Shown piece after piece: positions 2,779 to 20,369 of a stretch of 20,387 bases of DNA; the stretch's first letter is position 1; each line of letters starts with the position of its first letter. The stretch is from positions 1-20,387 of the IMG/VR virus record IMGVR_UViG_3300027851_001190; one strand, 5' to 3'. Origin of the DNA: a virus. The notes beneath the pieces were generated by a model, which saw only the letters and a list, made by a program, of their open reading frames with translations, did no database searches and was not told the origin of the DNA. Made by a program: the position numbers and the translations under genes.

Positions 2779-3239
2779 TCCACTTCCTCCATCGGCCGGT
2801 AGATCCGGAAAAGGTGTTTCGCAAAAGTCGAATCCTCCATGGAGCAGCGCGTGACTCCGTAGGCATCGTAGCAGTGCCAGAACCAGCTATCCCGCTCGAC
2901 CAGGCCCAGGTGGTGCAGGCTGCGGCCCGTGCTGAAGACCAGCACGTCGCCGGGCTCAAACACGCCGGCGGGTTCTATCCGATCAAAGCAACCCGTGGCC
3001 TCGATGCTGTTGCATAACACATCGAGCATTTCACGGCCGCCGCCGCGCAGGCAGTACCGTGGCCACTCAACCTCCGTGGCCGCGCCCACCTCATGGAGCA
3101 CGGCTGCCGCAAAGCGTACGCAGTCACAACCCACGCCCCGAATCGCAGACTGCCCGACAAACGGAGTGCCTGCCCAATCAGCCAGCGCGCTGGTGAGGAT
3201 GTCTTTCCGGGCCTGGGTTCTAAAAAAGGGCAGTCTCAT
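2775..3239 (-). CDS. NlpC/P60 family cell-wall peptidase, tail-tip associated
   Basis: The 154-residue protein has the NlpC/P60 papain-like cysteine peptidase signature. The probable nucleophile is C40 in GVGCDCVRF, the second residue is H110 in SLHHLGLV, and the third polar residue is probably H122 in WFWHCYDAYG. GDVLVF before the histidine is the usual strand of this fold. In the gene transfer agent and in lambda K-like proteins such peptidases sit in the tail tip and cut peptidoglycan cross-links during DNA entry. No signal peptide is present, as expected for a virion protein. It overlaps both neighbours by ATGA, so hub, peptidase and J-like protein are probably translationally coupled. 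Unlike lambda K there is no N-terminal JAB/MPN metalloprotease domain. Confidence 0.92.
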   Translation of the reverse strand: MRLPFFRTQARKDILTSALADWAGTPFVGQSAIRGVGCDCVRFAAAVLHEVGAATEVEWPRYCLRGGGREMLDVLCNSIEATGCFDRIEPAGVFEPGDVLVFSTGRSLHHLGLVERDSWFWHCYDAYGVTRCSMEDSTFAKHLFRIYRPMEEVE

Positions 3240-4675: not shown

Positions 4676-4676
4676 A

Positions 4677-5712: not shown

Positions 5713-6687
5713 TCACGGAACCTTTTTCACTGCCCAGCCCAGTTCCTGGCCGAAGTTGATCGCGGTAATATTCCGGTTGTGCCCGGGCACGGGGAAGGCG
5801 ACCCACGTGTCGCTTCCGATCGTGAATTCCGTGGCCGCATTCAGCCCGGCGAAATACAAAACCCGCAGATCCGGGAACGTCCCCAGGAGGAAGCGGTCGA
5901 TGCTCTGAGCCGGGTTGTGGCCGGAATACACCAGGACCGGCATCAGCGGCCGGGATCCGTCCGCCCTGGGGTAAACCACCAGGGGGCAAAGCGGCGAGTA
6001 GAGCTGGCTGGCGCTGGCACCACTGGCCCGCTCGGCATTGGTGTACCACCGGGGCGCCGCACCATCGGCACACCACTGGGCACCCCCACCCACGGTCACC
6101 GTCCGCACCTTCATGGCGGCCCGGTTGGAGGTGTTGGCGTAGCCGTAGAGGACCGTGTCGCTGTAGCTGTTGTTGAACTGGGCGGCTGACAGGTCATCCC
6201 AGTCTCCGGAGCTATCTGCTACCCCGCCGCATACATATTGCCCCGTTTTGTCCCCGGAAACGGGCGTAAATGCCCTTTCTAGGCATCCCATCGAAAACCG
6301 ACTGAAGTATCCGGGCTGTACCTCAATGAACACGTGGCAAGCCTGCGCGGTGGCAAAGAACCATGCCCTCGTCATGCTGCCGCTCCTCACACTGCAGGCC
6401 GGGCCGGCCGCGTGCCCGGTCTGGCTGGCAATGGTCCCGGCCGAGTAGGCTGTCCTGCCGGCGAGATTGATGAAAACCCTGTCTCCGGTCGCGGTCACCC
6501 AGAGGGAAAAGCTGAAAGTCTCCGCGCCAATGCCTGAGTCGTAGCTGGTCGAGACCAGCAGCTCGTAGAGGTTGCCGTTCAGCACCCCGCTGCGGTCGAT
6601 CGTCCAGCCGGCGCCGGTCAGGAAGGTTTCCAGGGACTGCAGGAGATTCACGTGCCCCGTGGGGGCGTTGACGAGTTGGTAGGCCAT
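5713..6687 (-). CDS. Virion structural protein, paralogue of the neighbouring upstream gene
   Basis: The 324-residue protein is of unknown precise role. It begins with a helical segment (NLLQSLETFLTGAGWTIDRS), followed by beta-rich sequence. Residues 105-140 (MTRAWFFATAQACHVF, then PGYFSRFSMGCLERAF) align by eye with residues 245-279 of the upstream 417-residue protein, and the C-terminal part (LLGTFPDLRVLYFAGLN, then an IGSDTWVAFPV strand) also has a counterpart there. Such proteins are encoded after the tape measure gene in many siphophages and are virion components; adhesin or tail-tip roles are possible. Its ribosome site GAGGAAAT lies 7 nt upstream, in a 10-nt gap, and the next gene starts 1 nt after its stop. 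It lacks the carbohydrate-binding-like repeats of its paralogue. Confidence 0.75.
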   Translation of the reverse strand: MAYQLVNAPTGHVNLLQSLETFLTGAGWTIDRSGVLNGNLYELLVSTSYDSGIGAETFSFSLWVTATGDRVFINLAGRTAYSAGTIASQTGHAAGPACSVRSGSMTRAWFFATAQACHVFIEVQPGYFSRFSMGCLERAFTPVSGDKTGQYVCGGVADSSGDWDDLSAAQFNNSYSDTVLYGYANTSNRAAMKVRTVTVGGGAQWCADGAAPRWYTNAERASGASASQLYSPLCPLVVYPRADGSRPLMPVLVYSGHNPAQSIDRFLLGTFPDLRVLYFAGLNAATEFTIGSDTWVAFPVPGHNRNITAINFGQELGWAVKKVP

Positions 6688-6697
6688 AGTAATTTCC

Positions 6698-7951
6698 TCA
6701 GCTTTTCAGCAGGGCCATAAAGCCGCCGCTCTGTGCCCGGTACACGTTTTCAAAAACCACGTAATCATTGCCCCCCACGCTCACCGTGTTTCCGGAAACC
6801 AGGCTCTCGGGGGAAATGTAGAAAACCCCATCCAGCCGGCCCTGCAGGCCCCCGGGGTTGGCGTAGACCAGAACCTCCTCCAGACCGTAGTCGCCGGCGG
6901 CATTGCGGCCGCCGTAGATCAAAGCCTGGCGGTAAGGCATCACGCGCTGCGTGTTGCTCAGGTCGCCCCAGACCGCGTCGCTTTGGAAGAGCAGGCCCAT
7001 GTTGGCCGTGTTGGCCGCGATCGGCGGATTGTTGTCGCTGCTGCTGTCGTAGGCGTCCGTTGTCGAGGAACTGTTTCCATTCACCCAGAGCGGGAGAGGC
7101 AGCTGGGTGACGGTACCAAATCGGAAAAGCAGCCCGGCGTGGGTGAAGTGGTAGCGGTTGTCGCTTTGCGTGACCCACATGAACCGGGCCTTGTTCGCCC
7201 AGAACCAAAGAGGGATGTCCCCCGTCCCGCCGTTCCACATCTTCGCATAAAACCCCTGGGTGGTGTTTGTCTGCGCATAGAGGTCCCCAGTGAGGTCGTT
7301 CGGCAGTTGGCGCCACTCCGGTGTCACCACGCTCGGCGCCGTGGCCGCCGTGTGGTTGGTCACGCACACCCAATAGTGACTGGAGGAAATCACCACGTTC
7401 CCCGCCACGTAGGCGGTTCCAGTCAACCAGCTGCCGTTGTTCACATCTGTGCGCAACGTCTGGCTGGCCTGGCTGCCGGTCACTCCCAGCCACCCCTGGG
7501 CGGCGCCCACCCGGACCAGTCGCGTGGCCGCCACTGCGGTGGATTCCTGCCAAGCCAGGAGGATCTCAACCTTGTCCTGGTTACCGAGGCCCAGATTTTC
7601 ATACGCCAGGCAGAAACGCCGGCTCGCGGCCGTGGGATGGCTGTGGGCGTCCAAGCGGTACTTCCGGGTCCACTCATTGCCGGATCCATTGAAGTCCGCA
7701 CTCTCCAGGAGCGCGGCGATCGCATTCAACGCCTGCAGGGAATTGGCCGGGTGGACCAGGGCCCAATTCACGTCGGCCGGATCCAGCGTCGGCGCATTTC
7801 CGGTCGTGCTGCCCTTGGCCTTGAAGCGCAGCCCTGAGCCACTCACCACATCCAGGGCCGTGGTGGTGACCATGTCGCCCACCACATAGGCCGTGGCACC
7901 GCTGTACGTTCCGAGATTGGTCCCCGCACTGACTGTTTGATAAAATGCCAT
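6698..7951 (-). CDS. Virion structural protein with two carbohydrate-binding-like (CBM5/12-type) repeats
   Basis: The 417-residue protein carries two copies of a short aromatic module resembling chitin-binding CBM5/12: residues about 13-67 (TYSGATAYVVGDMVTT, then ...NWALV) and 172-216 (GSWLTGTAYVAGNVVI, SSHYWVCVTNH, ...PEWRQL). Both follow the pattern W/Y-x-GTAYVxGdxV...Y.c...aP...W. Between and after them is a body shared with the downstream 324-residue protein (DIPLWFWANKARFMWV, DNRYHFTHAGLLFRFG; GNDYVVFENVYRAQSG near the end). The family is typical of virion proteins encoded after the tape measure. The repeats suggest glycan binding (inference). The start is well supported by a GAGGAG site 5 nt upstream, and it lies 1 nt after the tape measure stop. 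Confidence 0.78.
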   Translation of the reverse strand: MAFYQTVSAGTNLGTYSGATAYVVGDMVTTTALDVVSGSGLRFKAKGSTTGNAPTLDPADVNWALVHPANSLQALNAIAALLESADFNGSGNEWTRKYRLDAHSHPTAASRRFCLAYENLGLGNQDKVEILLAWQESTAVAATRLVRVGAAQGWLGVTGSQASQTLRTDVNNGSWLTGTAYVAGNVVISSSHYWVCVTNHTAATAPSVVTPEWRQLPNDLTGDLYAQTNTTQGFYAKMWNGGTGDIPLWFWANKARFMWVTQSDNRYHFTHAGLLFRFGTVTQLPLPLWVNGNSSSTTDAYDSSSDNNPPIAANTANMGLLFQSDAVWGDLSNTQRVMPYRQALIYGGRNAAGDYGLEEVLVYANPGGLQGRLDGVFYISPESLVSGNTVSVGGNDYVVFENVYRAQSGGFMALLKS

Positions 7952-7952
7952 G

Positions 7953-10900
7953 TTAACTCCTCACTCCTAATTCGGTGGTGCGCCGCGTGGTGTAATCGAA
8001 GGCCATCTTTGCGCCCTCGCGCTGCATGAATTCCTTCATCTCCTGACGGGAATTCACCAGGGCAAAATTGATGATCGGCCGCGTGTCCACGTCTCCGGAT
8101 CCGCCGCCGGACGTGCCCACATAGCCGCCGGAAGCAAAACCCATGGAGGCGCTGCGGCCGGGCGCCGGCGCCCGCATGCCGTGGAACCAATCACGCGGTA
8201 TGCTCATGCTGTTGAGCGCCGCAAAGAGCCCGGGCCCGTAATGCTGCACGGCGGCCGTCCTGGCCACAAATTCACCACTCGCCACCATGGCCACCCGGTT
8301 GTCGCTGTGGCTCGGGGCCCCGGGGATCAAGCCGCCTTCCTCAAAGCCGAGGCCGCCGCCGCCCAGGGCCAGCATGCCGATGATCAACGCGATCGCGGCC
8401 GTGGCCGCCACCAAGCCGGCCGTCGCGGATCCGCCGAAGGAGGCGATACTGGTCGCGGCGGCCGCCGGCGCGTTCGCCGCTGCGATCGTGGCGCCGGCCG
8501 TCACCTGTGTGGCCTGGTTCTGGACCGTCAACATTTTGCCCACCGTGTTCATCACCACCATCTGGACCACGATTTGAACCAAGTTGGCGATGATCGAGGA
8601 GACCGTGTTCTGCATCGCCTGGCGCCAGGTCATCGTCCCGTTAATCAGGCCGGTGATTCCGTTGGAGATGCCATCGATCGCGGAGCCCAGCGTGCCGGTG
8701 ATCACTTTGCTCACTTGCTGGGAAGTGGTTCCGAAGCTGTTGACCCAGTTTGTGAGATCGGACTGGATGCCGCCGTTGAAGGTGAGCGTCTTTGCCTCGT
8801 TTTCGATTTGGGCAATCTGCTGGCTAGCTTGAGCCAGGCGGTCGATCCGGTCCTGGACGTTTTGCTGGACCTGCGGATCCTCGCTGTCCTGGTTGGCCTC
8901 GATGTAGGCGCGCCAGGCGTCAATAGTCTTTTTCAGCTCCTCGCGTTCCCGCTGCAGCAGCTCGAATAATTTGAGGCGCTTTTGCTCGTCTGTCTGGAAG
9001 GGGTCACCACGCAGCAGGGTAATTTCCGATTCGATTCCACTCAAACGCCGCTGGGCTTCGATCTCTTCCTGTCTCAGTTGTTGCGCATGCTGCGCTGTTA
9101 GCTTGGTGAGCTCCTCTTCCGCGTCAACAGTGTCGCGGGCTATTTTTAGAGCCCTCTCCCTGGAAACTCCCGACTGCTCTTCCAGCTGCACTGCGCGTTC
9201 TGATATCTTGGCACTCCGCTCCAGATAATCGGCCGTTTTTCCCTTGTCGAACCCAACCTTGTAGGAACCGCTGGCAAATTTTTCGGCTTCTTCACCTGTG
9301 CCAAATTCAATGTAATCGCCTGTTGCCAGCGCTTCCGCGACAGCGTCCTTGGCGGCATATAGCTTGTTGTTCTTTTTGTCGTAGAAGAGCGTCGGGAAGG
9401 CAATATTTTTCCCGTCGACTTCCGCACTGGCCATTAAATGCGTCGAAAAGGACCCGTCTCCGTTATCCTGTTTGGGGTATTGATCCGCATTGAGGATGCG
9501 ATCGACAAAGTTCTTATCCTTATTTTTAGAAAGGATGTCCAGTGTGCTGACTTCGTCTTTCCCGAGGTTCGTTTTGATGCCCGAGTCTTTGGCTTGGGCT
9601 AGTCGTAGTTGGCTGATTTTTAACTCCAACTCGGCGGCCGTCAGAGCGTTCTGCTGTTTTTTTGCCTTTTCGTCCTCGGCCGAAATCTCCTTGCGGATGG
9701 AAAGTATTTCCTGGTCCAGGTCGACGATGCGCCCGCGCAACTCTGCTTCTTGCTGGGCTTGCTTTAGTCCACTTTTATCACCTGGGATTTCAGTGAGGCG
9801 CAATGCATCAAGATCACGTTTCGCCCGGGAACGGTCGGCCTCAACAAGCCGCAGGCGATCTGCCGGCTTTGCCTGAGAACGGAATACTGCTTCCTCTTTG
9901 GCTGATATTTGACGCTCCAGCTCGGTCTTTGCGACTAGGTCCTCAAACCCTTTCGCCAGTTCCTTGCCGGCCTCAAGCCGCGATTTCTCCTGCGCTTTCA
10001 AAACGTCCAGACGCTTTAGCTCCTCGCCGTTGATCGCCTGGACCTTTCGGAGTTCGATCTCCAGAAGCGCAAGACGCGAGTCGATCATTGCCCGCCCGAC
10101 TTCACCGTATTTTTCAGTGGAGCTCCCGAGGATTCCCGGGATCCGGGCGTTCCGCTCATTCAGCAACTCTACCATCTGGCGCTTTATTTCCTCCGTGCGG
10201 AATTTGGCGCTGGCGACCCCCTCAACCTTCAGGGCATTGAGTTTTTCGGTTTCATTATTGAGCTCCTTGGTCAGCTCGATGGTGCGTTCCAGCTCGTTTT
10301 GATTTTTAAAACCGACGGAACTTAAAGTGGGGTCGAATAGATTTTGTTGGATGTAGCGCGTAGCTTCGAATGCAGCCAAAAAAACGGTCACGGCCAGAAA
10401 GGCCTTGTTCAGCGCGGACAGCGATGCTGTCATCGCATTAACCTGACCGATCGGGCCGGCCAAATTCAGGCTCACTAAACCATAAAGGGTATTGGCAACT
10501 TTGATTGTTCCCAAGGCCACTCCCAGTTTGATGGACACGCCGGCAAGAGCACTTAACCCGGCCGTGTTCTCCGCCGCCCACTTAACCATTGATGCCAACA
10601 CCCCCACCAATGCCATCACATCGCCGATCAGTTGCCTAAAGCCATCCTTAAACCCATCGGAGTTGACTGTTTTGTTGAGCTCCAAGAGGTCGGACCTCAG
10701 TGCCTCAAATAGAGACTCCGTCAGTGAGGCTTTGATTTGCTGTAGGCTGTCTCCCAAATTGCTTAAAGCGACCGCGTAACTCTGTGTTCCTATCACGCCG
10801 GCCTCGGCAAAAGCGCTGACTTTTCTTGTGATGAATTCGTAGAGCTGGCCGGCCTCTTTCGCCTTGGCCACATCTTCCGCAGTGATCCCAAATACCTTTG

Positions 10901-11441
10901 CCGCCTGGGCATTCGCGGTGATCTGACCTGTTAGGATGGCTCGGGTTTCACTCGCGACTTGTTGATCTGGGAGACCTAATCCTTTTACGGCCTGGCTAAG
11001 ATTCAGAACTAACTGAATCTGCTGCTGCAGGTTGTTAATGCCACCGGCAAATTGCGCTCCTGAAGTGGCCTGGAACGCCTCCAGCAACGATTCAAAGCTG
11101 GCACTACTTTCCTTGGCTTTGACCTTTAACAGATCCACGCCGCGACCTGCTTCGACCAGGGCGTCGTTGAAATTCGCAAATTTCTCGGGCTGGAATTGTT
11201 TGAGGACGGCAGCGATCCCGAGCTTGCTCTGCTCCAAGGTGCTGTTGAAAGCCACACCCTCTTGCACCATCCGCTTGATGGCTCCAGGAAGCAATCCAAT
11301 CGAGGAAACCAGCTTCCCGCCCAGATCAATACCAACCCCCAGCTTCAGAGTATCAAGCAGCTGATCCACCTCCTGGCGGTACTGCTTAATCTCCTTGGCA
11401 TTGGCCTCGGTATCGATCCGGACTTTAACTTTTGTGGCCAT
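7953..11441 (-). CDS. Tape measure protein with an embedded virion-protein domain
   Basis: The 1162-residue protein is the longest gene, placed directly after the tail chaperones as in lambda. The N-terminal 230 residues resemble tape-measure N-domains (GAIKRMVQEGVAFNSTLEQS). Hydrophobic segments lie near 265-345, 945-970 and 1005-1035. Long charged coiled-coil stretches cover about 385-650 and 735-915. The C-terminus has the usual FEEGGLIPGAPSHSDNRVAM and ASGEFVARTAAVQHYGPG motifs. The protein sets tail length; at about 0.15 nm per residue the tail would be near 170 nm (inference). Residues about 650-738 (QDNGDGSFSTHLMASAEVDG, IAFPTLF, EALATGDYIEFGTGEEAEKF) are an inserted globular domain known from other large phage virion proteins. 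GC drops to about 45-55% over most of the gene but not its 3' part. Confidence 0.93.
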   Translation of the reverse strand: MATKVKVRIDTEANAKEIKQYRQEVDQLLDTLKLGVGIDLGGKLVSSIGLLPGAIKRMVQEGVAFNSTLEQSKLGIAAVLKQFQPEKFANFNDALVEAGRGVDLLKVKAKESSASFESLLEAFQATSGAQFAGGINNLQQQIQLVLNLSQAVKGLGLPDQQVASETRAILTGQITANAQAAKVFGITAEDVAKAKEAGQLYEFITRKVSAFAEAGVIGTQSYAVALSNLGDSLQQIKASLTESLFEALRSDLLELNKTVNSDGFKDGFRQLIGDVMALVGVLASMVKWAAENTAGLSALAGVSIKLGVALGTIKVANTLYGLVSLNLAGPIGQVNAMTASLSALNKAFLAVTVFLAAFEATRYIQQNLFDPTLSSVGFKNQNELERTIELTKELNNETEKLNALKVEGVASAKFRTEEIKRQMVELLNERNARIPGILGSSTEKYGEVGRAMIDSRLALLEIELRKVQAINGEELKRLDVLKAQEKSRLEAGKELAKGFEDLVAKTELERQISAKEEAVFRSQAKPADRLRLVEADRSRAKRDLDALRLTEIPGDKSGLKQAQQEAELRGRIVDLDQEILSIRKEISAEDEKAKKQQNALTAAELELKISQLRLAQAKDSGIKTNLGKDEVSTLDILSKNKDKNFVDRILNADQYPKQDNGDGSFSTHLMASAEVDGKNIAFPTLFYDKKNNKLYAAKDAVAEALATGDYIEFGTGEEAEKFASGSYKVGFDKGKTADYLERSAKISERAVQLEEQSGVSRERALKIARDTVDAEEELTKLTAQHAQQLRQEEIEAQRRLSGIESEITLLRGDPFQTDEQKRLKLFELLQREREELKKTIDAWRAYIEANQDSEDPQVQQNVQDRIDRLAQASQQIAQIENEAKTLTFNGGIQSDLTNWVNSFGTTSQQVSKVITGTLGSAIDGISNGITGLINGTMTWRQAMQNTVSSIIANLVQIVVQMVVMNTVGKMLTVQNQATQVTAGATIAAANAPAAAATSIASFGGSATAGLVAATAAIALIIGMLALGGGGLGFEEGGLIPGAPSHSDNRVAMVASGEFVARTAAVQHYGPGLFAALNSMSIPRDWFHGMRAPAPGRSASMGFASGGYVGTSGGGSGDVDTRPIINFALVNSRQEMKEFMQREGAKMAFDYTTRRTTELGVRS

Positions 11442-11458
11442 GTTGCGTTACATCACTC

Positions 11459-12096
11459 TCAGGAAGTCGTGCCCGGGCCCAGCGCTGCAGCCAGCCGGGC
11501 ACGGTTTTTCTTGGGACTCTGCTTCTGCGCCGTGGGGCCCTGGGCCGCCCTTCTCAGGGCCGCCTCCAACTTCACCAGGATCTTGTGCCCGCCCTTGTTG
11601 TTGCAGGCCGCGTACGCCGCGTGGGCGGCATGCAGATGCCCCAGCTGGCCCTCTGCCTGGACCCGCTGAAGCTCCCGCCACCGGAGCAGCACCTGGGGAA
11701 TGGACTCCTCGCATAACTGCTCGAAGCTCAGCCCGCAGGCGTTGGCGACACGGGTGCAGATCTCTGCGAGTCCAGCATCGGCTGAAGCTTCGCCGCGCTG
11801 GGCCCGAGTTTTTGCAGGGTGTCCACCCGCAGCGTCAGCCACCGGTGGAAGTTCGGAAAATTTAGGCGGTTGCCCTCCTCCAGGAGGCGCATCTGGTCCT
11901 CTGTGGTGACCGTGTCGCTCCAGCCGGGCTCCTGGCCGGCATACAGCTCCAGGAGACGTGCGTCGTCATCCTGGGCAAGGGCCATCTGGCCCATCAGTTT
12001 CAGTTTGATCTGGCGGACCTTGACGGTTTCTTTGCGGCCGTCGTCGTGGGTGATTTCAATTTCAGTGCCACCCAGCACCGTGATCATATCGCTCAT
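11459..12096 (-). CDS. Tail assembly chaperone GT-type fusion, made by -1 frameshift
   Basis: Reading 80 codons from the ATG at 12096 and slipping -1 on A_AAT_TTT gives an 80 + 132 = 212-residue fusion ending in TGA at 11459-11461, 17 nt before the tape measure start. After the slip the frame reads SELPPVADAAGG and continues through GLSFEQLCEESIPQVLLRWR to a basic end (KKNRARLAAALGPGTTS). In lambda and many other tailed phages, a small fraction of ribosomes make GT, whose T domain recruits the tube protein while G coats the tape measure. The layout here, between tube and tape measure genes, is the same. No independent start with a ribosome site is seen for the second frame; its first candidate start is GTG at 11842. 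The fusion is inferred from sequence, not proven. Confidence 0.85.
11728..12096 (-). CDS. Tail assembly chaperone, unshifted G-type product
   Basis: The 122-residue protein starts MSDMITVLGGTEIEIT and is translated without frameshift. It is small, soluble and acidic to neutral, and lies between the tail tube and tape measure genes, as expected of lambda G-type chaperones that coat the tape measure during tail assembly. The ribosome site GAGG lies about 10 nt upstream of the ATG. The slippery site is at codons 79-80 (Asn-Phe), leaving a 42-residue tail specific to the unshifted product (ending SAPVSPTPAG). No enzymatic motif is visible. The role is inferred from position and the frameshift arrangement rather than strong sequence similarity. 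Confidence 0.87.
   Translation of the reverse strand: MSDMITVLGGTEIEITHDDGRKETVKVRQIKLKLMGQMALAQDDDARLLELYAGQEPGWSDTVTTEDQMRLLEEGNRLNFPNFHRWLTLRVDTLQKLGPSAAKLQPMLDSQRSAPVSPTPAG
11822..11849 (-). promoter_or_regulatory. Candidate frameshift-stimulating stem-loop
   Basis: TCCACC pairs with GGTGGA (6 bp, 16-nt loop). The stem begins 7 nt after the slippery heptamer, the usual spacer. An overlapping palindrome CCACCGGTGG offers an alternative pairing, so the exact structure, or a pseudoknot, is uncertain. Confidence 0.5.
11857..11863 (-). promoter_or_regulatory. Slippery heptamer A_AAT_TTT for -1 programmed frameshifting
   Basis: On the minus strand the G-frame codons are CTA AAT TTT CCG, so the heptamer is A AAT TTT, a perfect X_XXY_YYZ motif. 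Slipping back one base re-pairs as AAA TTT and enters the open T frame. It lies 42 codons before the unshifted stop. Confidence 0.85.
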
Positions 12097-12167: not shown

Positions 12168-12953
12168 TTACTCGCGGTGCAACACGGTTCCGACCGTTCC
12201 GGTGATCTGCACTTTGATCTGCAGGTCGGAGAAGTTGTCGCCGTCAATGTTCGGCTGGCCCTCCAGCGCGATGTCGCACGAGAAGCCGGTGTGTTCGAAG
12301 ACCACGGCCGGGCTGTTCTCGTCGAAGACCGCCAGGCGGCCGAAGCCACTGCGGGTCGTCTTGGTCAGCGGGGTCAGCGTCTTGAGGTATTCCACGCTGG
12401 CCGAGGTGATCTGGGGCGCCGTGATCACGGGGACCAGGTTGGCCGCCTGGGCCGTCAGGAAGCGGATCCGCCCGGTCAACTTGTCCAGGATAAAGTCCGT
12501 GCCTTCCGCTTTGCCGGTGATGGTCACCGTGGTGATGTTGCGCACCCGGGCGCCCGCGATCCGGAGGTCATACCACAGGCCAATCACGGCCGCCGTGGTG
12601 CCGAAGGGGAGAGCGTCCCCGTTGGCCGTTGCGGCCGCTGTCTGGGTGAAGCCGGCTCCGGCCGCACCGAAGAACGCCAGCCACATGACCAGGTCCTTGA
12701 ATTCGTCGACGGTCAGCAGGTAGCCGTGCTTGATCTTGGTGATCTTGCGGCGGTCGACGCGCTTGATGCCCCGGTAGGAGCCTTCGTGTTCCAGGGGGCT
12801 GGATTCCGGTTGGAGGGAAAACGCCTTGACGTTCCCCAGGTCCCGGTAGCCACGCGTGGCCGCATCCGCTTCGCTGGTTGCGTCCTCACTGAACGAAAAT
12901 TCCCCCGTGCCGAGCAGGAGGGCGTCCAGATTCTTTTCTTGGATTTCACTCAT
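12168..12953 (-). CDS. Major tail tube protein
   Basis: The 261-residue protein is placed immediately before the chaperone pair and tape measure gene, where siphophages encode the tube subunit that polymerises into the tail. The N-terminal part (LLLGTGEFSFSED, RDLGNVKAFSLQPE, RRKITKIKHGYLLTVDEFKD) and the beta-rich C-terminal half (FDENSPAVVFEHTGFSCDIA, FSDLQIKVQITGTVG) fit phage tail tube proteins of the Mu-like/siphophage group. The Ala/Gly-rich segment near residues 95-125 may be a surface loop. An AAGGA site lies about 10 nt before the ATG, behind an A/C-rich leader. Hairpins lie on both sides of the gene, consistent with a separately tuned, highly expressed message (inference). There is no sheath gene, so the tail is non-contractile. 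Confidence 0.83.
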   Translation of the reverse strand: MSEIQEKNLDALLLGTGEFSFSEDATSEADAATRGYRDLGNVKAFSLQPESSPLEHEGSYRGIKRVDRRKITKIKHGYLLTVDEFKDLVMWLAFFGAAGAGFTQTAAATANGDALPFGTTAAVIGLWYDLRIAGARVRNITTVTITGKAEGTDFILDKLTGRIRFLTAQAANLVPVITAPQITSASVEYLKTLTPLTKTTRSGFGRLAVFDENSPAVVFEHTGFSCDIALEGQPNIDGDNFSDLQIKVQITGTVGTVLHRE

Positions 12954-13022: not shown

Positions 13023-15689
13023 TTATGCAATGGTGCTTGCGTCCTTCCACCCGACTGAGGTTTCTGTGGATCGGGTCGTGACGGAGCAGTTGAACGTGCC
13101 TGATGTGTAGGGGATCCATGCAGCCTGGTCGGAATAACCGGCAAACAGTCCTAAATAGAGGGTGGCATTATAAACAAATGGCCACGCGTGGGCGGTTAGG
13201 CTTGCCTGGGTTGTGGCCGGGACGAGATTCGATTGGGTCGATCCCAGCACGGCCTCTCCGGTGCTGGCCGCGTCGTAGTAGACAAGGGCGGCCGTTCTCC
13301 CAAGGCCATAAGACCCCACGGAAAAACTCGCGGAGTTGCAGTCGGCCACCACAGTGGAGCCAACATTCTGGACGCTGTTGAATTGCCCCACCACGATTCC
13401 GGGTCTGACATTGCCTGCAGTCTTGGTTCCGGCCGTATAGGCAGTCGAGTTGGTCAGGCGGATGTACTGGTCGCCTACTTGGGCGCCGGTAATCGGCACA
13501 TTCAGGGTGTCGACCGTCCCGGCGGACACATATTTGTGAACTCCGGAAGCGGTGCCGGCTTCGATCCAGACCGGATCGCCGGCCACCATGTTCGCAGTCA
13601 AAAGCTCATAGGTTGCCGTGATGACCACGTAGAGGTCGGTCGTGGTCGTGGCTTCAAGCGCCCGCAGCCGGCCCGAGGCCACCCCCAGGGAGGTCGCCCT
13701 CGTGGGACTGAACCGTGATTCAAATTGGCATTGGTACATCGAGTTGAGCGGCATGCGGTTGAAAAACACCTCGCCGTAGTTCGCGCTCTTCACGCGGCCG
13801 TGGATATTGGCGTTGATGCCCGGGTCAACAAACGAGTTGACAATCGGCGCCGCAACACACTCCAAGTCCACCTCGAATGTGACGTTGCTCGACGCCACAT
13901 CGATGAAGCTCAAACCGGCGCCGGTGATGTTACGGCCCACAGCCTGAACATGTACGTCGGTGATGACGTTGTTCACAGATGTTCCCGTGGCCGAGCCGAT
14001 GGAAAAACCGGATGGGGCACCGTTTATAAACAGATTCCGGATGGTCAGCCGGTCGATGGTCGAGGCGTCTCTTGCATTGATAAAACATCCATTCGCCTGG
14101 GGATTGATGACCTCGAAGCCATCCACGAATATATCGCTGGAATTTCCAAAAGTCGGATCAGCGCAGATCAAAATACCGTCGACGCCGGAACCAGTGGACG
14201 AACAATTTGTAATCCGAATGCGTTGCACGCACTTGACCGAAAAGCCGTGTCCGCCGCCGGTTCCCGGACCGTACGTGTGTAAATTGTCGATCGTGATGTC
14301 CTGTCCATTGCATTCAAAAATGTGAGAGCCCGATTTCAGGGCATCAGGCTCAATCACGGAGACGTTCCGGATCAGGCCCTTGTGAACGGCGGCGGTTCCA
14401 CCGGCAACCACAAAAACATTAGTGCTGTCTGTCACAGCATAGCGGCGGATGGTCAGGTCCTTGATGGTCCATTGGGTGGATGTCGCCGCGACACTGAACG
14501 ATCCCGCCAGGATCGTGGCGCCAGACGTGGCGGTCAGATTGCTGCGTCCCAGAGCACCCGAGCCGATGATAGACACGCCGGTCTTGTTCGACAACGAGAC
14601 CGCGCCGACGATGTATTGGCCCGGGCCCATGCGAATAATGTCCCCGGTTCCTGCGGCCGCCAGGGCGGAATTGAACGCTGCCCCATCGGCCCCGTAATAG
14701 GTCTGTGTCGATCCACTGATCAACCAAACTCCCGTATCCATCCGGGACACCACTTCTTTGACCCTCAACGGAGTCATCGCTCGGGTATGATCCGTGCCGG
14801 CAAGGGCCTCGGCATTGGTGGCCAGCCGGATCAGCCCAAGAACGGTTTCGGTGGATTGGTCCCGGTTGGATTCAACCACAAACCATCTCGACCCCACGGC
14901 TGCCTCTGTGCCGCCGGCGGTGTCCGTGTGGCAGCAAATGAGGTCGCCAACATTGACAGTGGTACCACTGGCACCCCCAACCTTTCCGGCTACCGTCACC
15001 CGGTACGTGTCGCCCGCCTGGGCTGTGGGATAGTTCGGATTGGCGCTGCAGTCCAGAGCCTGGGGCGCCTTCATCACCGGATCCACCAAACCGTCCACGT
15101 AGCTTTTTGAGGCGGCGTCCGACGGGTTCGTGGGAGTGGGCAGGCCGGTAGCCTTGGCCCCACCCGAAAAGACCAGGTTGCCTGTCATCGTGCCGCCAGT
15201 TTTCGGCAGCTTCTCGGCATCCAATTCCTGGATGGCTCCCTGAACGTCGGAAGAGCTGACCGACCCAACAGGCGTGATGGTCACCAAGGCCGCCACTGCG
15301 GCCGCCACATCGGCCGCCGTCGCGCCGGCAGGCATCACGATCAAGTGGAAAATTTCGCCCTCTACTTCCCCGGTGCCGGGATCGTGGTCGATGCGGGCCA
15401 TGAGCGTGCCCTTGGGCAATTCCAGGTCATTGTATACCTTGGTATAGGCCGTATCCGATTCCGGATCCACCGGGGCATCCCAGGGTGAAAATTCCACATC
15501 CGGCGGATCCTCCAGATACCGCTCCGGCTTCCAGGCCCGCAGCCAGATTTGCGCACCTGGATCAAGTGTGGTGTCAATGCCGGCGTTTTTCAGCATCAGG
15601 CGCGCCGTGCGGGATCCCATCCCGGTCTCGATGATTTCAAAATTATTGGGCGTCAGCTTGCCGGTCGTGAGTTCAAAATTAATGTTCAT
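13023..15689 (-). CDS. Tailspike / receptor-binding protein with right-handed beta-helix
   Basis: The 888-residue protein starts at the ATG 4 nt after the preceding stop; an in-frame start at 15740 lies inside the upstream gene and is less likely. Residues 1-120 look like a baseplate/tail-attachment N-domain (LDPGAQIWLRAWKPERYL). Residues about 146-200 are tail-fibre-like (VQGAIQELDAEKLPKTGGTM, SDAASKSYVDGL), and about 278-314 match a fibre repeat (VLGLIRLATNAEALAGTD, MTPLRVKEVV). Residues about 330-650 are a pectate-lyase-like beta-helix (GADGAAFNSALAAAGTGDII, GPGQYIVGAVSL, then repeated rungs such as ITIDNL, IRITNC, LTIRNL). Residues about 670-888 form a beta-rich trimerisation or binding end. 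Such spikes bind or cut surface polysaccharide; no catalytic residues can be named. Its position before the tube gene is unusual. Confidence 0.85.
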   Translation of the reverse strand: MNINFELTTGKLTPNNFEIIETGMGSRTARLMLKNAGIDTTLDPGAQIWLRAWKPERYLEDPPDVEFSPWDAPVDPESDTAYTKVYNDLELPKGTLMARIDHDPGTGEVEGEIFHLIVMPAGATAADVAAAVAALVTITPVGSVSSSDVQGAIQELDAEKLPKTGGTMTGNLVFSGGAKATGLPTPTNPSDAASKSYVDGLVDPVMKAPQALDCSANPNYPTAQAGDTYRVTVAGKVGGASGTTVNVGDLICCHTDTAGGTEAAVGSRWFVVESNRDQSTETVLGLIRLATNAEALAGTDHTRAMTPLRVKEVVSRMDTGVWLISGSTQTYYGADGAAFNSALAAAGTGDIIRMGPGQYIVGAVSLSNKTGVSIIGSGALGRSNLTATSGATILAGSFSVAATSTQWTIKDLTIRRYAVTDSTNVFVVAGGTAAVHKGLIRNVSVIEPDALKSGSHIFECNGQDITIDNLHTYGPGTGGGHGFSVKCVQRIRITNCSSTGSGVDGILICADPTFGNSSDIFVDGFEVINPQANGCFINARDASTIDRLTIRNLFINGAPSGFSIGSATGTSVNNVITDVHVQAVGRNITGAGLSFIDVASSNVTFEVDLECVAAPIVNSFVDPGINANIHGRVKSANYGEVFFNRMPLNSMYQCQFESRFSPTRATSLGVASGRLRALEATTTTDLYVVITATYELLTANMVAGDPVWIEAGTASGVHKYVSAGTVDTLNVPITGAQVGDQYIRLTNSTAYTAGTKTAGNVRPGIVVGQFNSVQNVGSTVVADCNSASFSVGSYGLGRTAALVYYDAASTGEAVLGSTQSNLVPATTQASLTAHAWPFVYNATLYLGLFAGYSDQAAWIPYTSGTFNCSVTTRSTETSVGWKDASTIA

Positions 15690-15693
15690 TTTC

Positions 15694-15819
15694 TTATTTC
15701 TTTGCTTGGGGTGATGTCGGCTCCAGCTCCTCAACCTCAAACGGTTGCGGCACCCGCCGGGTCTGTGCTTTCGTAAAAACCTTGATCGCGCTCAGTAGGT
15801 AGATGCCCTTCAGGTTCAT
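15694..15819 (-). CDS. Small 41-residue protein in the Mu gp38 position
   Basis: The ORF reads MNLKGIYLLSAIKVFTKAQT followed by RRVPQPFEVEELEPTSPQAK and a final K. Its ATG overlaps the preceding TGA as ATGA, and a GGAGG site lies 5 nt upstream, so translation is very likely. It ends 4 nt before the tailspike ATG. In phage Mu a short DUF2635 protein (gp38) lies at the same point, between gp37 and the sheath gene; I do not see a convincing sequence match, so the link is positional only. The N-terminal half is mildly hydrophobic and basic, the C-terminal half acidic and proline-containing. It may be a tail assembly cofactor or simply a coupling leader for the tailspike gene. Confidence 0.7.
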   Translation of the reverse strand: MNLKGIYLLSAIKVFTKAQTRRVPQPFEVEELEPTSPQAKK

Positions 15820-16361
15820 GCGTTCCTCCCGATCTCTCGTTTGTCGCTGCCGGCGTAGATTTCAAACTCCTGGCTCCAGCATTCCCGGCCGGCCAGCTCG
15901 GCCCGCTCTTCGTTGGAGCGTTGGACGTTGGACAAATAAAAGGAATCTCCCGATAGGGGCAGAACCACCGCAAAAGGAAGGCTGGTTAGCGTCTTTCCAA
16001 AAAGGGCGGCGACAATGATTTCACTCATAGGTGAAACGCCCACGGTTTCTGAGTCGCCGGTGAATGCCGCCATGCGCTCCCCGTAGTTTTGATCGCAAAT
16101 CAGGAGGGACAGGCTCACCGTTTTCTTGCTGGTCACCACGTTCCCGGACCGTTGATTCACAAATTCCTCGCCTGTCGTGACGAGAAAACAGGCCCGTTCT
16201 TCAAAAACCAGCAACTCCTCAAAAGCAGCCTGCAGGTTGGCCTGCGAAAAAACCTTCACGCCATCGGAAGTGAACAGGGGATCGGAACTGGCCGGCACGG
16301 TCAGAGTCAGTAGCAGCGTTCTGACGGCCGCCAGGATGTCGTTTTTGGAAGAGAAGCTCAT
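15816..16361 (-). CDS. Gp37-like tail completion / terminator protein (DUF1834-type)
   Basis: The 181-residue protein begins 1 nt after the gp36-like gene, with a GGAAG site about 9 nt upstream, and overlaps the next small gene by ATGA. An N-terminal helix (SKNDILAAVRTLLLTLTVPA) followed by a mixed alpha/beta body (ELLVFEERACFLVTTGEEFV, VVTSKKTVSLSLLICDQNYG, WSQEFEIYAG) is the pattern of Mu gp37/tail terminator proteins, which cap the finished tail tube and join it to the head. Gene order (gp35-gp36-gp37-like) supports this strongly, while the sequence alone is only moderately convincing. No membrane segment or enzymatic motif is seen. Confidence 0.68.
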   Translation of the reverse strand: MSFSSKNDILAAVRTLLLTLTVPASSDPLFTSDGVKVFSQANLQAAFEELLVFEERACFLVTTGEEFVNQRSGNVVTSKKTVSLSLLICDQNYGERMAAFTGDSETVGVSPMSEIIVAALFGKTLTSLPFAVVLPLSGDSFYLSNVQRSNEERAELAGRECWSQEFEIYAGSDKREIGRNA

Positions 16362-16362
16362 G

Positions 16363-16746
16363 TCAGAATTTCTTCCCGGAGCCCCAATTTCCGGTCTGGG
16401 GATTCACGTCGGTGGGAAGGGGGTCCTTGAGTGGCAGGTCGGGGAATTTGCCATCGCGGATTTCCCGCAGTTCCTTCATGGCCTGATCGTGTTTGGTTTC
16501 GCGTTTGGCGGGGATGGGTCCCAGACGGGAATACAGCTCAAACAGCACCAGGGCACGCACCAGGCGTTTTTCCCGGTCCACCGGCAGTGCATAGCGCCGG
16601 GTAAAATCGTCCACCTTCTGCAGCTGCTCCGCGATCGTCGTGGTGATCGGATCCGGATCGCCAAGCTCGACGAGCTTTTTGGCAATACCGTCCAACTCCC
16701 TTTTGGAGATGTCGGCCAGCAGATCTTTTTCGATGAAGGTGATCAC
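16363..16746 (-). CDS. Gp36-like head-tail connector (DUF1320)
   Basis: The 127-residue protein shows the DUF1320/Mu gp36 pattern: an N-terminal helical region with KRELDGIAKKLVELGD, a middle helix pair (TIAEQLQKVDDFTRRYALPV) and DREKRLVRALVLFELYSRLG. Proteins of this family are small all-helical connectors between portal and tail terminator. The C-terminal 40 residues (PIPAKRETKHDQAMKELREI, then a Pro/Gly tail GNWGSGKKF) look extended. The start codon is GTG and has no visible Shine-Dalgarno; directly upstream is the AT-rich and cttcgcg repeat spacer, so the start is less certain than for neighbouring genes. It is followed after 1 nt by the gp37-like gene. Confidence 0.82.
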   Translation of the reverse strand: MITFIEKDLLADISKRELDGIAKKLVELGDPDPITTTIAEQLQKVDDFTRRYALPVDREKRLVRALVLFELYSRLGPIPAKRETKHDQAMKELREIRDGKFPDLPLKDPLPTDVNPQTGNWGSGKKF

Positions 16747-16834: not shown

Positions 16835-17293
16835 TCAGGCCTTGGCTTCCTCCGCTTCCAGGATCGCGCTGATGAGATTGTGCTCGTTCAGGCCGCGATG
16901 GTTGATGCCGAGCGCGCTGGCAATGCGGTCCTGTTCCTTCCGGGCCAGGCCCTGCAGCTCCTTCGCCCGGGCATCGCGCTTCTGCGCTTTGGCCTGGGTT
17001 TCGGTTTCCAGTCGTGCCTTTTCGTCGGCAGTGAGTTTTTCATCGGCGGCCTTCCGGTCCGCCTCTTCCTTGGCAGCCTTTTCGTCCGCCAGGCGTTTTT
17101 CCTCGGCCGCTTTTTCTTCCGCCTCTTTTTTGATGCGGGCAGCCTCATCCTTGTCGTCCGGGTTCGCCGGGACGACCTGTTTGAAGTGCAGCCAGGCATC
17201 CAGGGACGCTCCGCCGGCTTCGATGACATCGCCCTTCGGGACGACCTTTCCGCCAACCACAATCCCCTTGGGATCTTTGACGATGACTCTCAT
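16835..17293 (-). CDS. Coiled-coil virion-associated protein in the Mu gp35 position
   Basis: The 152-residue protein starts MRVIVKDPKGIVVGGKVVPK. An AAGGA site about 8 nt upstream selects this ATG over an in-frame start 81 nt further up. Residues 1-43 are a small beta domain common in short phage proteins encoded after the capsid gene (strand, turn, GDVIEAGG, helix DAWLHFKQV). Residues about 46-115 are a highly charged Ala/Glu/Lys coiled coil with repeated AAxEK/ADEK units. Residues about 118-152 (RKEQDRIASALGINHRGLNE, then HNLISAILEAEEAKA) resemble a small SAP/HeH-type helical domain that often binds nucleic acid. Its place between capsid and gp36-like genes equals Mu gp35. The function is unknown. 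Confidence 0.78.
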   Translation of the reverse strand: MRVIVKDPKGIVVGGKVVPKGDVIEAGGASLDAWLHFKQVVPANPDDKDEAARIKKEAEEKAAEEKRLADEKAAKEEADRKAADEKLTADEKARLETETQAKAQKRDARAKELQGLARKEQDRIASALGINHRGLNEHNLISAILEAEEAKA

Positions 17294-17313
17294 GGGTTGA
17301 TCCTTTTTGATCC

Positions 17314-17330
17314 GCCTTCTGCCTTCTGCC
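17314..17330 (-). repeat. Short direct repeat gccttct x2 plus partial
   Basis: The plus strand reads gccttct gccttct gcc, then cactgccctc, in the 94-nt gap after the capsid gene. It has the look of the dispersed intergenic repeats seen in the next spacer. Confidence 0.55.
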
Positions 17331-17337
17331 CACTGCC

Positions 17338-17355
17338 CTCCGGTTAGAACCAGAG
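17338..17355 (-). terminator. Hairpin after the capsid gene
   Basis: CTCUGGU pairs with ACCGGAG on the minus strand (7 pairs including one U-G, 4-nt loop), about 33 nt after the capsid stop. No U-tract follows. It could be an attenuator or an mRNA 3' stabiliser for the capsid message. Confidence 0.45.
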
Positions 17356-17387
17356 AGCATGTGGGCTCAGGCAATCAGGCCGGATGG

Positions 17388-18488
17388 TTAGCTCAGCACG
17401 TCCGAGAGGTGATAGCCCGCCGCACTGCCGACGAGCTTCTCATCGGTGTAATGGCGGATCTGGTTCACTTCCGTGTTGGTGTTGTTTTCGGAGTAGGTGA
17501 GCACCGAGGTGCCGCCCTCTCCGCCGCCGTCGACCGCCGTCCAGACGAAGGTCCGGAGGAAGTTCATGGCCTGCAGGTCCTGGCTGGCATTGGCATGCGC
17601 CAGAATGACCGAATCGGACCAGATCTTTTCCACGGCCAAGGCCTGGCCGTCGGCCGCGCTGTTGATCAGGCCGCCGGCGATGATGATGTCATCGATCTCA
17701 AACACCTGCTTGAGCATGTCCAGGGTCAGCACCTGCTTGTTGGCAGATCCGAAGAGCTCCAACAACTTGGTGTGATACTTCAGCTTGCGCCAGACCTGAC
17801 GGGGAATGATCATCAGATTGGGATCCATTCCCACCGCGTCATAAATGGCCTCCTTGGCCACATCCACATCCAGGTGGGGTGTCGAGGTGGTGTAATTGTC
17901 CCACTTGTTGGTCGGGCTGCTATTGGGAACAGTGCCGGCCGTGGCCGCCGCCTTGACGCGCTTTTCGTGGTTGATCCGAATGATGCGCAGGTTCCGGAGC
18001 AGGGCCGCACGGCTGGCGTCAAAAGCTGACGCATACCGTTTCTTGTCCTCAACCGGCACGGGCACTTCATGACCGTACTTCTTGCAGTTGTACGTGTCGT
18101 CAGACAGGTGCATCAGCGATCGCCCATAGGCTTGGCCGGGAGCCATCGCCTTCAGGGTCGGGACCGAGACCTCGTCTTCCGCCGTCGTGACGTAGTAGTC
18201 GGACGACTTTTCGTTGGTGTAGAAATACGGTGCGAGCCGGGCGCCCACGAAGGTGCCCATGTCTTGCATGAATTTCCGTGCCACCGAAGTGAGGACGGGG
18301 TTGATTGTGGCCGTGCTGGTCAAACCCATCTGGGTGTGACGACGGGCCAGCAGGTCGCCCTGCTGATTGCCCAGGCACTGCGCCATCGGTGCCAGGAACG
18401 TGGTGATGACCAGGAGCGTGAGCCCCCACATCAACAGTCCCAGGCCGGTGCGCGGCGGGCGTTGCATGAATTTTCCGAATCGTTTCAT
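17388..18488 (-). CDS. Major capsid protein with N-terminal hydrophobic segment
   Basis: The 366-residue protein has a body from about residue 54 (MGLTSTATINPVLTSVARKF) that fits a family of HK97-fold major capsid proteins. Family-like features are an APYFYTNEKSSDYYV strand, TYNCKKYGHEVPVPVEDKKR, the helix FDASRAALLRNLRIIRINHE, and DPNLMIIPRQVWRKLKYHTK followed by LLELFG and an IAGG strand. It follows protease and decoration genes as expected. Residues 1-53 are an extension: basic residues (KRFGK), then a strongly hydrophobic stretch at about 15-34 (GLGLLMWGLTLLVITTFLAP) and a polar linker ending LARRHTQ. It could be a signal-like anchor, a prohead domain removed by the protease, or an annotation artefact if M54 (at 18329) is the true start. 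No clear Shine-Dalgarno precedes either ATG. Confidence 0.88.
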   Translation of the reverse strand: MKRFGKFMQRPPRTGLGLLMWGLTLLVITTFLAPMAQCLGNQQGDLLARRHTQMGLTSTATINPVLTSVARKFMQDMGTFVGARLAPYFYTNEKSSDYYVTTAEDEVSVPTLKAMAPGQAYGRSLMHLSDDTYNCKKYGHEVPVPVEDKKRYASAFDASRAALLRNLRIIRINHEKRVKAAATAGTVPNSSPTNKWDNYTTSTPHLDVDVAKEAIYDAVGMDPNLMIIPRQVWRKLKYHTKLLELFGSANKQVLTLDMLKQVFEIDDIIIAGGLINSAADGQALAVEKIWSDSVILAHANASQDLQAMNFLRTFVWTAVDGGGEGGTSVLTYSENNTNTEVNQIRHYTDEKLVGSAAGYHLSDVLS

Positions 18489-18553: not shown

Positions 18554-19189
18554 TTATGCGGCCGCACGGAGAACCAGGTAGGACACTTTGGTGGTGCCGT
18601 CGGTTCCGTTGGCGCTGAGGGTGAGGTCGATCTGGTCGTTGGCATGATCGTTGACCGCCGAGACCAGGGTTTCCGTGGAGGCCCGCGCCACCAAGGTGGG
18701 CAGGATGATGTCCCCGTTTTCCAGTCCGGCCACCGCGATGCTGTCAGTGGTGGCAGCCCCGCCGGCCCAGGTGTGAACCCCGGATTTGACGATGCTGTAG
18801 TTCGGTTTCTGGTTCGGGATGTCGTAGACCTCGATGAGGTCGCCGTCCGCGCTGTTGCCGGCCGATTTCTTGATCCCACGGCTGAAGCCGGAGACCAGGG
18901 TGGCAGCCTTGCCGCCCACGGCCGGGATGATCTGGGCGCCGCCGGCAATGACGCCGCCAGCACGCACGCGCATGATGCCGCCGCTTCCCAGGAGGTGAAT
19001 CTGCACCTCACGGTCACGGAGATCCGCTTTTTCCACGATCACGCCGACTTCTTTGCCGACTGTGGCCAGGAGTTTGTAGGTTCCGGCAGCCGTGCCGGGC
19101 TCGACAAAGTAGCCCTGCTTGCCATCGAGGTCGCCCAAGGTTTCCTCCAGGCCCCCGAAGTTGATTCCGCCAACTGTTTCTGTTTGCAT
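18554..19189 (-). CDS. Head decoration / stabilisation protein, two-domain
   Basis: The 211-residue protein lies between protease and capsid genes, the usual place for a capsid decoration protein. Residues about 20-122 (LDGKQGYFVEPGTAAGTYKL, RAGGVIAGGAQIIPAVGGKA, GNSADGDLIEVYD) resemble DUF2190/decoration-like domains that bind the outer capsid. Residues about 128-211 (YSIVKSGVHTWAGGAATTDS, NGDIILPTLVARA, VSYLVLRAAA) form a beta-sandwich module also seen in other phage structural proteins. No signal peptide or membrane segment is present. The ATG has no Shine-Dalgarno and follows an A/C-rich leader. The role is inferred from order and the first domain. Confidence 0.75.
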   Translation of the reverse strand: MQTETVGGINFGGLEETLGDLDGKQGYFVEPGTAAGTYKLLATVGKEVGVIVEKADLRDREVQIHLLGSGGIMRVRAGGVIAGGAQIIPAVGGKAATLVSGFSRGIKKSAGNSADGDLIEVYDIPNQKPNYSIVKSGVHTWAGGAATTDSIAVAGLENGDIILPTLVARASTETLVSAVNDHANDQIDLTLSANGTDGTTKVSYLVLRAAA

Positions 19190-19223: not shown

Positions 19224-19778
19224 TCAGCTCTGGGCCGGGGCGGCTTTGCCCAGGGATTCCAGATAGTCGTCGTAGAGTTTGGGATGGGCTTCGGCGGCTT
19301 TCACCAAAGCTTCGTCTTCGGAGATGTCTTCCTCCTTGGCGATGGCTTTGGCCTTGACGACCAGCTCGTGGTCGGTGCCGGCAACATCGTTGCCTTCGGG
19401 TCCGCCCTTTTTTACCACCTGGCCGGGAACCTTCGTGGGCTCCATGGCTTCCAGGAGTTCCGCGTCATCGGGGTTGGCCTCGATGCGGGCGATCCATTTG
19501 GCCTTGAGTGCATCGTTCTTCGGAGCGATGCGGCCTTCGGCGGCTGCTTTGGCCACGAGGGTCTCGGCGTTTTTCTTGCGGAGTTTGCCGAGGTCGGCCG
19601 ACACTTTGTCGTACTCCGACTTGGCAACGTAGTCCGTGGCCAACTTGGCCTTGAGGCTCAGCGCCTCTTTGATATCCACGCCCTTGGCGCTAAGCTCGGC
19701 CACCGCAGCCGCATCATCCAAGTCGCTGCTGCTGAGGATGCCGAACTTTGCCAGGAGCTTCATGAGTTCCTTGTTCAT
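19224..19778 (-). CDS. Possible nested scaffold protein from an internal start
   Basis: An in-frame ATG at 19778 begins MNKELMKLLAKFG exactly where the Pro/Gly linker of the protease ends, giving a 184-residue scaffold-like protein. AAAAGGA lies 3 nt upstream (19782-19788), close but plausible as a ribosome site. Phage Mu makes its scaffold Z from an internal start within gene I, so the layout has precedent. Expression is inferred only. Confidence 0.45.
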   Translation of the reverse strand: MNKELMKLLAKFGILSSSDLDDAAAVAELSAKGVDIKEALSLKAKLATDYVAKSEYDKVSADLGKLRKKNAETLVAKAAAEGRIAPKNDALKAKWIARIEANPDDAELLEAMEPTKVPGQVVKKGGPEGNDVAGTDHELVVKAKAIAKEEDISEDEALVKAAEAHPKLYDDYLESLGKAAPAQS

Positions 19779-20369
19779 CTGTCCTTTTGCCCCTGGGGGG
19801 GGCTGCGATGGCGGGTTAGGGTTCCCTCCCTGCGGGCCATCACCGCCGGGCTGGTTTGCGCCCGGCGCCTGCCGGGCTAAAAGTCGTTCGATCGTTTGGA
19901 AGGCCGGCCGGTTGACCATGCCGCCCATGTTCAGGGTCACGCCACGGATCTTGCGGATATCGCCTTCCTTGGTGATCAATACCTCTGGCGAAAACGCCTG
20001 GTAGGTTTCATCGGTCAGGGCCCTGAGCCCGGCGCCGCTAAGTTTGACCTGCACACGGATCCCGCCTTTTTTCGGATCCTCGCCACCCCACCAGGCTTTG
20101 AGCGGCCACGCGCTGGCCGGACCGTCTTCGTGGTCAAAGTCAAAATACGGCTTCACGCTTTCGCCGGCCGCAGCCTTGGCCAGCATATCCTGGATCTGCC
20201 CATTAATCAGTTCTGCGTCGGCGGCCTTCGCTTCAACCTTGATCTTTTTGGTCTTCTTGCCCACTAGGGCAGTGATTTCGTTGACCCCTGGCGGGACATA
20301 TTGGATTTCTCGCAGTTCGCCTGCGCCCGCAGGGATCTGCAGAGAGTACGCCGCCTGCAGCGTGTCCAT
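19224..20369 (-). CDS. Prohead protease / scaffold, Mu gpI-like
   Basis: From the first in-window ATG the protein has 381 residues, but the frame stays open to the window edge and this ATG has no good ribosome site, so the true start may lie outside. The N-terminal half matches Mu gpI-type prohead proteases: EIQYVPPG, FDFDHEDGPASAWPLKAW with probable catalytic H80, YQAFSPEVLI with probable nucleophile S127, and a TLNMGGMVNRPAF ending. These enzymes mature the capsid shell by cutting scaffold and other head proteins. A Pro/Gly/Gln linker at about 173-197 leads into a helical Lys/Ala/Glu-rich scaffold-like half (MNKELMKLLAKFGILSSSDL, DKVSADLGKLRKKNAETLVA). The stop is 34 nt before the decoration gene. 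Confidence 0.87.
   Translation of the reverse strand: MDTLQAAYSLQIPAGAGELREIQYVPPGVNEITALVGKKTKKIKVEAKAADAELINGQIQDMLAKAAAGESVKPYFDFDHEDGPASAWPLKAWWGGEDPKKGGIRVQVKLSGAGLRALTDETYQAFSPEVLITKEGDIRKIRGVTLNMGGMVNRPAFQTIERLLARQAPGANQPGGDGPQGGNPNPPSQPPPGAKGQMNKELMKLLAKFGILSSSDLDDAAAVAELSAKGVDIKEALSLKAKLATDYVAKSEYDKVSADLGKLRKKNAETLVAKAAAEGRIAPKNDALKAKWIARIEANPDDAELLEAMEPTKVPGQVVKKGGPEGNDVAGTDHELVVKAKAIAKEEDISEDEALVKAAEAHPKLYDDYLESLGKAAPAQS

Follow-up and report, generated by a model that had tools for sequence, protein, structure and literature searches.

An extra fibre/spike gene at the neck-tube junction of a B3/JBD30-type siphophage module

RESULTS

Organization of the Structural Gene Module

The 20,387-nucleotide stretch of DNA analyzed here (the window), from an uncultured long-tailed bacterial virus, carries a structural gene module on the minus strand. 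Its genes are given below in the order in which they are read.

19224..20369, minus strand, Mu-like protease I (Pfam PF10123)
18554..19189, minus strand, head scaffolding/decoration protein (phrog_673, 1e-4)
17388..18488, minus strand, major capsid protein (phrog_1005; real start probably internal)
16835..17374, minus strand, gp35-position protein, K/E-rich (assigned by position only)
16363..16746, minus strand, Mu gp36-type head-tail adaptor (PF07030, 9.9e-8)
15816..16361, minus strand, gp37-like neck protein at the stopper position (assigned by position only)
15694..15819, minus strand, 41-aa ORF overlapping the stop of the gp37-like gene (positional counterpart of B3 orf42, no sequence match)
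13023..15689, minus strand, spike/fibre gene
12168..12953, minus strand, tail tube (major tail) protein, siphophage type (phrog_807, 1.8e-16; NCBIfam NF052337, tail_tube_6XGR)
11728..12096, minus strand, tail assembly chaperone position (overlapping -1 frame ORF at 11459-11842)
7953..11441, minus strand, tape measure protein (HMM-supported)
6698..7951, minus strand, o50, counterpart by order of the JBD30 tail-fibre protein gp47
5713..6687, minus strand, o51, counterpart by order of the JBD30 tail-fibre protein gp48
4677..5711, minus strand, o52, first part of the distal tail protein
3236..4675, minus strand, o53, fusion of the second distal tail part with the upper baseplate protein
2775..3239, minus strand, NlpC/P60-like tail peptidase
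1..2778, minus strand, baseplate hub (J-like) with a C-terminal LamG lectin domain

Pfam and PHROGs profiles back the assignment of the protease, capsid, gp36, tube, tape measure, o50 to o53, NlpC-like peptidase, and hub. The match of the tube protein to NF052337 (6.7e-16, 58.5 bits) lies slightly below the 60-bit cut-off. The original prediction had read the gene order as that of phage Mu. This holds by HMM for the protease, capsid, and gp36, but the "gp35," "gp37," and "gp38-like" proteins gave no HMM match, and their labels are positional; comparison of the gp37-position protein with B3-type stoppers using hhalign gave only P = 0.08. Neither a sheath gene nor a Mu-type baseplate gene was found among the window genes with Pfam, PHROG, or NCBIfam profiles. 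Judged by this gene content, in which a Mu-type protease and gp36 are combined with a siphophage tube, tape measure, distal tail protein, and hub and a sheath is absent, the window represents a siphophage module of the B3/JBD30 type, with a non-contractile tail.

The capsid ORF has ~53 extra N-terminal residues containing a hydrophobic stretch (18300-18488); alignment suggests that the true start is an internal ATG at about residue 54. The tape-measure region (8500-11500) has a GC content of ~0.53, compared with 0.60-0.64 around it, and the strongest codon deviation in the window (z 5.8). At 11459-12096 the overlap between the -1 frame ORF and the chaperone gene is like that of a G/GT programmed frameshift, and it contains an AAAAACT run at about 11813.

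Domains of the Spike Protein

The spike gene encodes a protein of 888 amino acids from an ATG start and reads from 15689 to 13023. The coordinates originally predicted for it were correct, and the ORF is real and on the minus strand. The stop codon occupies 13023-13025 and is followed by a gap of 69 bp, after which the tail-tube gene begins, confirming that the spike gene stands directly before the tube gene. Given this stop codon and gap, no frameshift or readthrough joins the two genes. Searches found no close relatives of the spike, tube, and capsid in IMG/VR, and none of the capsid in GTDB genomes. Three regions of the spike can be distinguished.

15315..15689, minus strand, residues 1-125, putative anchor domain
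14700..15218, minus strand, residues ~158-330, fibre/stalk module with KTGGTMTG and SDAASKSYVDG motifs (T4 gp12-type repeat)
13770..14700, minus strand, residues ~331-640, probable right-handed beta-helix with motifs 26-31 residues apart

Residues ~158-330 are firmly assigned as tail fibre from sequence matches. The module matched PHROG tail-fibre families, including phrog_910 at 1.3e-9, and its best PDB match to a gp12 chain of T4 type was at 8.7e-9. Residues 158-282 share 41% identity with a tail-fibre-domain protein of Xanthomonas phage Rb1. The spike thus contains the phage fibre stalk module of tail fibre/tailspike proteins. When pieces of the spike were searched by tblastn in 50,697 phage records, only the fibre module gave matches. 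Among 79 contigs carrying the module, a tube gene was detectable in the fetched flank of none.

The original prediction had called the protein a beta-helix tailspike. The fibre/stalk part is significant by the phrog_910 and gp12 matches, but the beta-helix is seen in motif spacing, with neither HMM nor AlphaFold confirmation. Hydrophobic-x-Asn/Asp-hydrophobic motifs occur at residues 409, 440, 467, and 493, and the series continues, as judged by eye, at 522, 550, and 576. The four-motif chain was reproduced in 0 of 1000 shuffles and in other window proteins the chain was never above one, for a pattern picked after inspection of the sequence. A looser form of the motif, also picked after such inspection, occurs six times in the region compared with 1.8 expected (14 of 5000 shuffles). 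The region had no sequence match in Pfam, PHROG, NCBIfam, or the PDB, and tblastn with the beta-helix piece against the same phage records gave only matches at E 3-5. A 942-aa fibre to which one match ran into the beta-helix region was rejected as a relative of that region because it has no visible beta-helix motifs. AlphaFold modeling of the whole spike from its single sequence gave a pLDDT of 38, and a fold search with the model returned no match at E below 1; residues 1-125 modeled alone, again from a single sequence, gave a pLDDT of 39. These models were too poor and so were not used. From the motif spacing alone, a beta-helix at residues ~330-640 is likely but unproven.

Residues 1-125 had no detectable relatives in profile, hhalign, and tblastn searches. 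An anchor of the BppU_N (PF10651) or NPS type was rejected, as the HMM gave no hit at E 10 and hhalign a probability of 0.2%; NPS proteins, included as positive controls, scored 81-100 bits. An anchor like that of the tip adhesins of kin was also rejected, as the spike had no match to the post-hub proteins of six kin.

The Neck-Tube Junction in Related Phages

Tube-bearing contigs were fetched with alignments of B3-type and window-type tubes, and junctions were counted wherever a distinct locus with a tube gene had 1.5 kb or more of sequence upstream (n = 136). A spike at the neck-tube junction was found at none of the 136 loci. It was similarly absent from four prophage loci of genome contigs with a tube gene and upstream sequence. 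In B3, MP22, phiSHP3, Bhz63, and others the small neck gene (or its spacer) leads into the tube gene with no space for a further gene, and the window departs from this B3/JBD30-type arrangement in that a large gene separates the tube gene from the gp38-position gene. The capsid-to-tube distance in 105 contigs ranged from 1,109 to 3,430 bp, with a median of 1,757 bp. The corresponding distance in the window reaches 4,435 bp and falls to 1,768 bp after subtraction of the spike gene.

Two large ORFs near this position in kin were rejected. A 457-aa ORF in the slot of contig L065 was judged to be a frame artefact, because the capsid-to-tube distance of this contig is normal (1,573 bp from the capsid ORF). 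A 640-aa ORF between the capsid and neck genes of contig L171 was translated and read as a wrong-frame artefact.

The spike gene is therefore an addition, because the junction is empty in kin and the distance is normal without it: it is an extra gene at a junction that in kin is normally closed. This bears out the original view that the position is unusual for a fibre/spike gene, and routine carriage of a spike at this site by kin, which would have spoken against that view, was not seen. The accompanying idea of an insertion is upheld insofar as the gene is extra, but a recent foreign origin is unsupported by codon usage, as the deviation of the spike gene (z 2.9) is equaled or exceeded by that of several neighbors (2.6-5.8 for J, o53, tube, and TMP).

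Tail-tip Genes

The tip device encoded in the window comprises o50, o51, the distal tail protein (o52/o53), the upper baseplate protein, and the hub. Because o50, o51, o52, o53, and J are all present, the spike does not replace the tip genes, and because these genes are retained it is most simply an accessory adhesin.

The distal tail protein, a single protein of ~568 aa in B3 (orf52), appears to be split in the window (3236-5711). The o52 protein matches positions 351-681 of phrog_1082, and positions 738-903 of this family are matched by o53 residues 42-204, a segment that precedes the upper baseplate protein (phrog_778) in one fused chain. Residues Cys-343, Cys-353, Cys-435, and Cys-442 of o53 are invariant with B3-type kin (3300-3650) and are probably the metal site described for JBD30 gp50. 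The o50 protein has a CBM_5_12 carbohydrate-binding module at residues 175-205. The LamG lectin-like domain of the hub (residues 771-912, window 1-470) was not seen in three aligned kin hubs and may bind host glycans.

The contig stops exactly at the hub stop codon (window 1-4), and the usual position of a post-hub adhesin therefore falls off the contig. A second contig, IMGVR_UViG_3300006033_001309, is 100% identical over 8174 bp and ends at the identical base; its other end has a short inverted duplication.

DISCUSSION

Location and Role of the Spike

We tentatively favor, at a little under an even chance, a reading in which the window encodes an accessory spike, added at the neck-tube junction and most likely located at the neck or head-proximal end of the tail, that binds or trims polysaccharide. 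The protein would consist of an anchor domain, a fibre stalk, and a probable beta-helix head, and would act beside the products of ordinary tail-tip adhesion genes. Its gene would be co-transcribed with the neck and tube genes that flank it, whose junction is closed in kin. The spike would occupy a position like that of the neck passage structure of the 936 phages and is predicted to raise adsorption by acting on surface polysaccharide before the tip engages; its function is probably to grip the host surface. The gene itself, its fibre module, the siphophage context, and the junction left empty in kin are observed; the beta-helix fold, the trimeric state, the glycan activity, and the neck position are what we infer. 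The placement of the spike gene, with the stopper-position gene before it and the tube gene after it, hints at the neck. The neck of JBD30 consists of an adaptor and a stopper and nothing else. Counted against this reading are the lack of a BppU_N match at the spike N terminus, the nps gene place in TP901-1 (described below), the lack of a usable model, an anchor and beta-helix for which no relatives were found, and a contig that ends at the hub.

It is possible, though we consider it rather doubtful, that the spike is instead an ordinary tail-tip receptor-binding protein whose gene has moved upstream and which attaches to either the hub or the distal tail protein in the manner of Sf11 or JBD30; gene position would then carry no information about location. 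The siphophage Sf11 does have trimeric tailspikes that dock on its distal tail protein, and the hub of the window ends in a LamG domain, unlike the kin used for comparison. TP901-1 illustrates that a protein need not sit on the virion where its gene order would suggest: its nps gene is preceded by the gene for the receptor-binding protein and by a small putative holin ORF, the protein is nonetheless at the neck, and gene position is for this reason a weak guide to virion location. However, the adhesin gene follows the hub gene in B3, JBD30, and prophage kin, and the Sf11 spike gene is likewise at the distal end. The window spike has no match to the adhesins of kin, and the window retains o50 and o51 as tip fibre genes. 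A protein of the JBD30 gp54 type would be expected directly after the hub and with a kin-like anchor, whereas the spike gene lies upstream of the tube gene. We provisionally place the neck ahead of the tip as the site of the spike, an order that is unproven.

That the spike attaches to the tube protein, whose gene lies directly after its own, and so decorates the full length of the tail tube is improbable. The two genes are adjacent, and a tail-long decoration encoded beside mtp is known in TpeX of the 936 phages, but TpeX is encoded downstream of mtp, is produced by frameshift, and extends the tube protein rather than being a separate trimeric fibre; no frameshift or readthrough links the spike to the tube gene across their 69-bp gap.

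The original prediction placed the spike in the slot of the sheath gene L. This is correct by gene count from the Mu protease, but in evolutionary terms the framing is misleading, a by-product of the comparison with Mu, as kin have no sheath gene. Replacement of a sheath gene by the spike when a Mu-like myophage ancestor lost contraction is very improbable and already contradicted, since B3-type siphophages have a closed slot with neither sheath nor scar, the entire downstream tail module is B3-type rather than Mu-type, and there are no contractile tail genes around the slot.

If the accessory spike is indeed at the neck, the pre-tube junction would serve unrelated siphophages as a common point of entry for accessory adhesins, and the JBD30-type tail would gain a second, proximal adhesion site; annotators should then not presume that receptor-binding genes are solely distal. 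If it is a tip protein, the window would be an example of gene order misleading structural inference.

Comparison with Known Systems

The module resembles the adhesion device of JBD30 and B3 (gp47, gp48, gp49, gp50, gp53, and gp54). The tube, tape measure, o50 to o53, and hub are shared and their order is conserved, but in JBD30 and B3 the small neck gene and the tube gene have nothing encoded between them, and the receptor-binding protein is encoded after the hub. The trimeric tailspikes of Sf11, 9NA, and TW1 resemble the spike in being spike-type adhesins of phages with non-contractile tails. The Sf11 gene differs in lying distally among the tail genes, and its product, which uses N-terminal helices to attach to the distal tail protein, has no sequence match to the spike. 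Xanthomonas phage Rb1 shares the fibre module, in a gene located between the prohead protease and capsid assembly genes. The module is the only common part: the Rb1 protein is a 1271-aa fibre with a Peptidase_S74 chaperone, in a phage of another type.

For a neck location, the strongest parallel comes from another lineage. The 936 phages (Skunavirus) carry an optional nps gene between the head-tail joining genes and mtp, in a region around mtp that is a hotspot of rearrangement; immunogold labeling mapped the Phi15 NPS to the point between capsid and tail, and in NPS groups D and E the C-terminal part is a beta-helix (PMC4759559, PMC6669499). Gene order was checked in three of these phages: nps lies directly before mtp in PhiA.16 and Phi155, and in ASCC395 a 45-aa ORF lies between the two genes. 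The spike shares with these proteins the large, fibre-type character and the slot that follows the head-tail joining genes and precedes the major tail protein gene. The NPS proteins are modular, of about 500-900 aa with carbohydrate-binding or beta-helix C termini, and the spike has 888 aa and a probable beta-helix. In contrast, NPS begins with BppU_N, which neither HMM nor hhalign comparison detected in the spike; the spike stalk is a T4 gp12-type fibre module; and the phage lineages are unrelated. A fibre gene for the neck at the identical slot is thus already known from phages of dairy bacteria (the lactococcal 936 group), and ~140 viruses related to that of the window have no gene there. 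That the spike is a neck- or tube-mounted beta-helix protein of a Mu-type siphophage, with an anchor unlike that of the lactococcal NPS, and hence an independent invention at the same genomic slot, is plausible, although we would lean somewhat against it.
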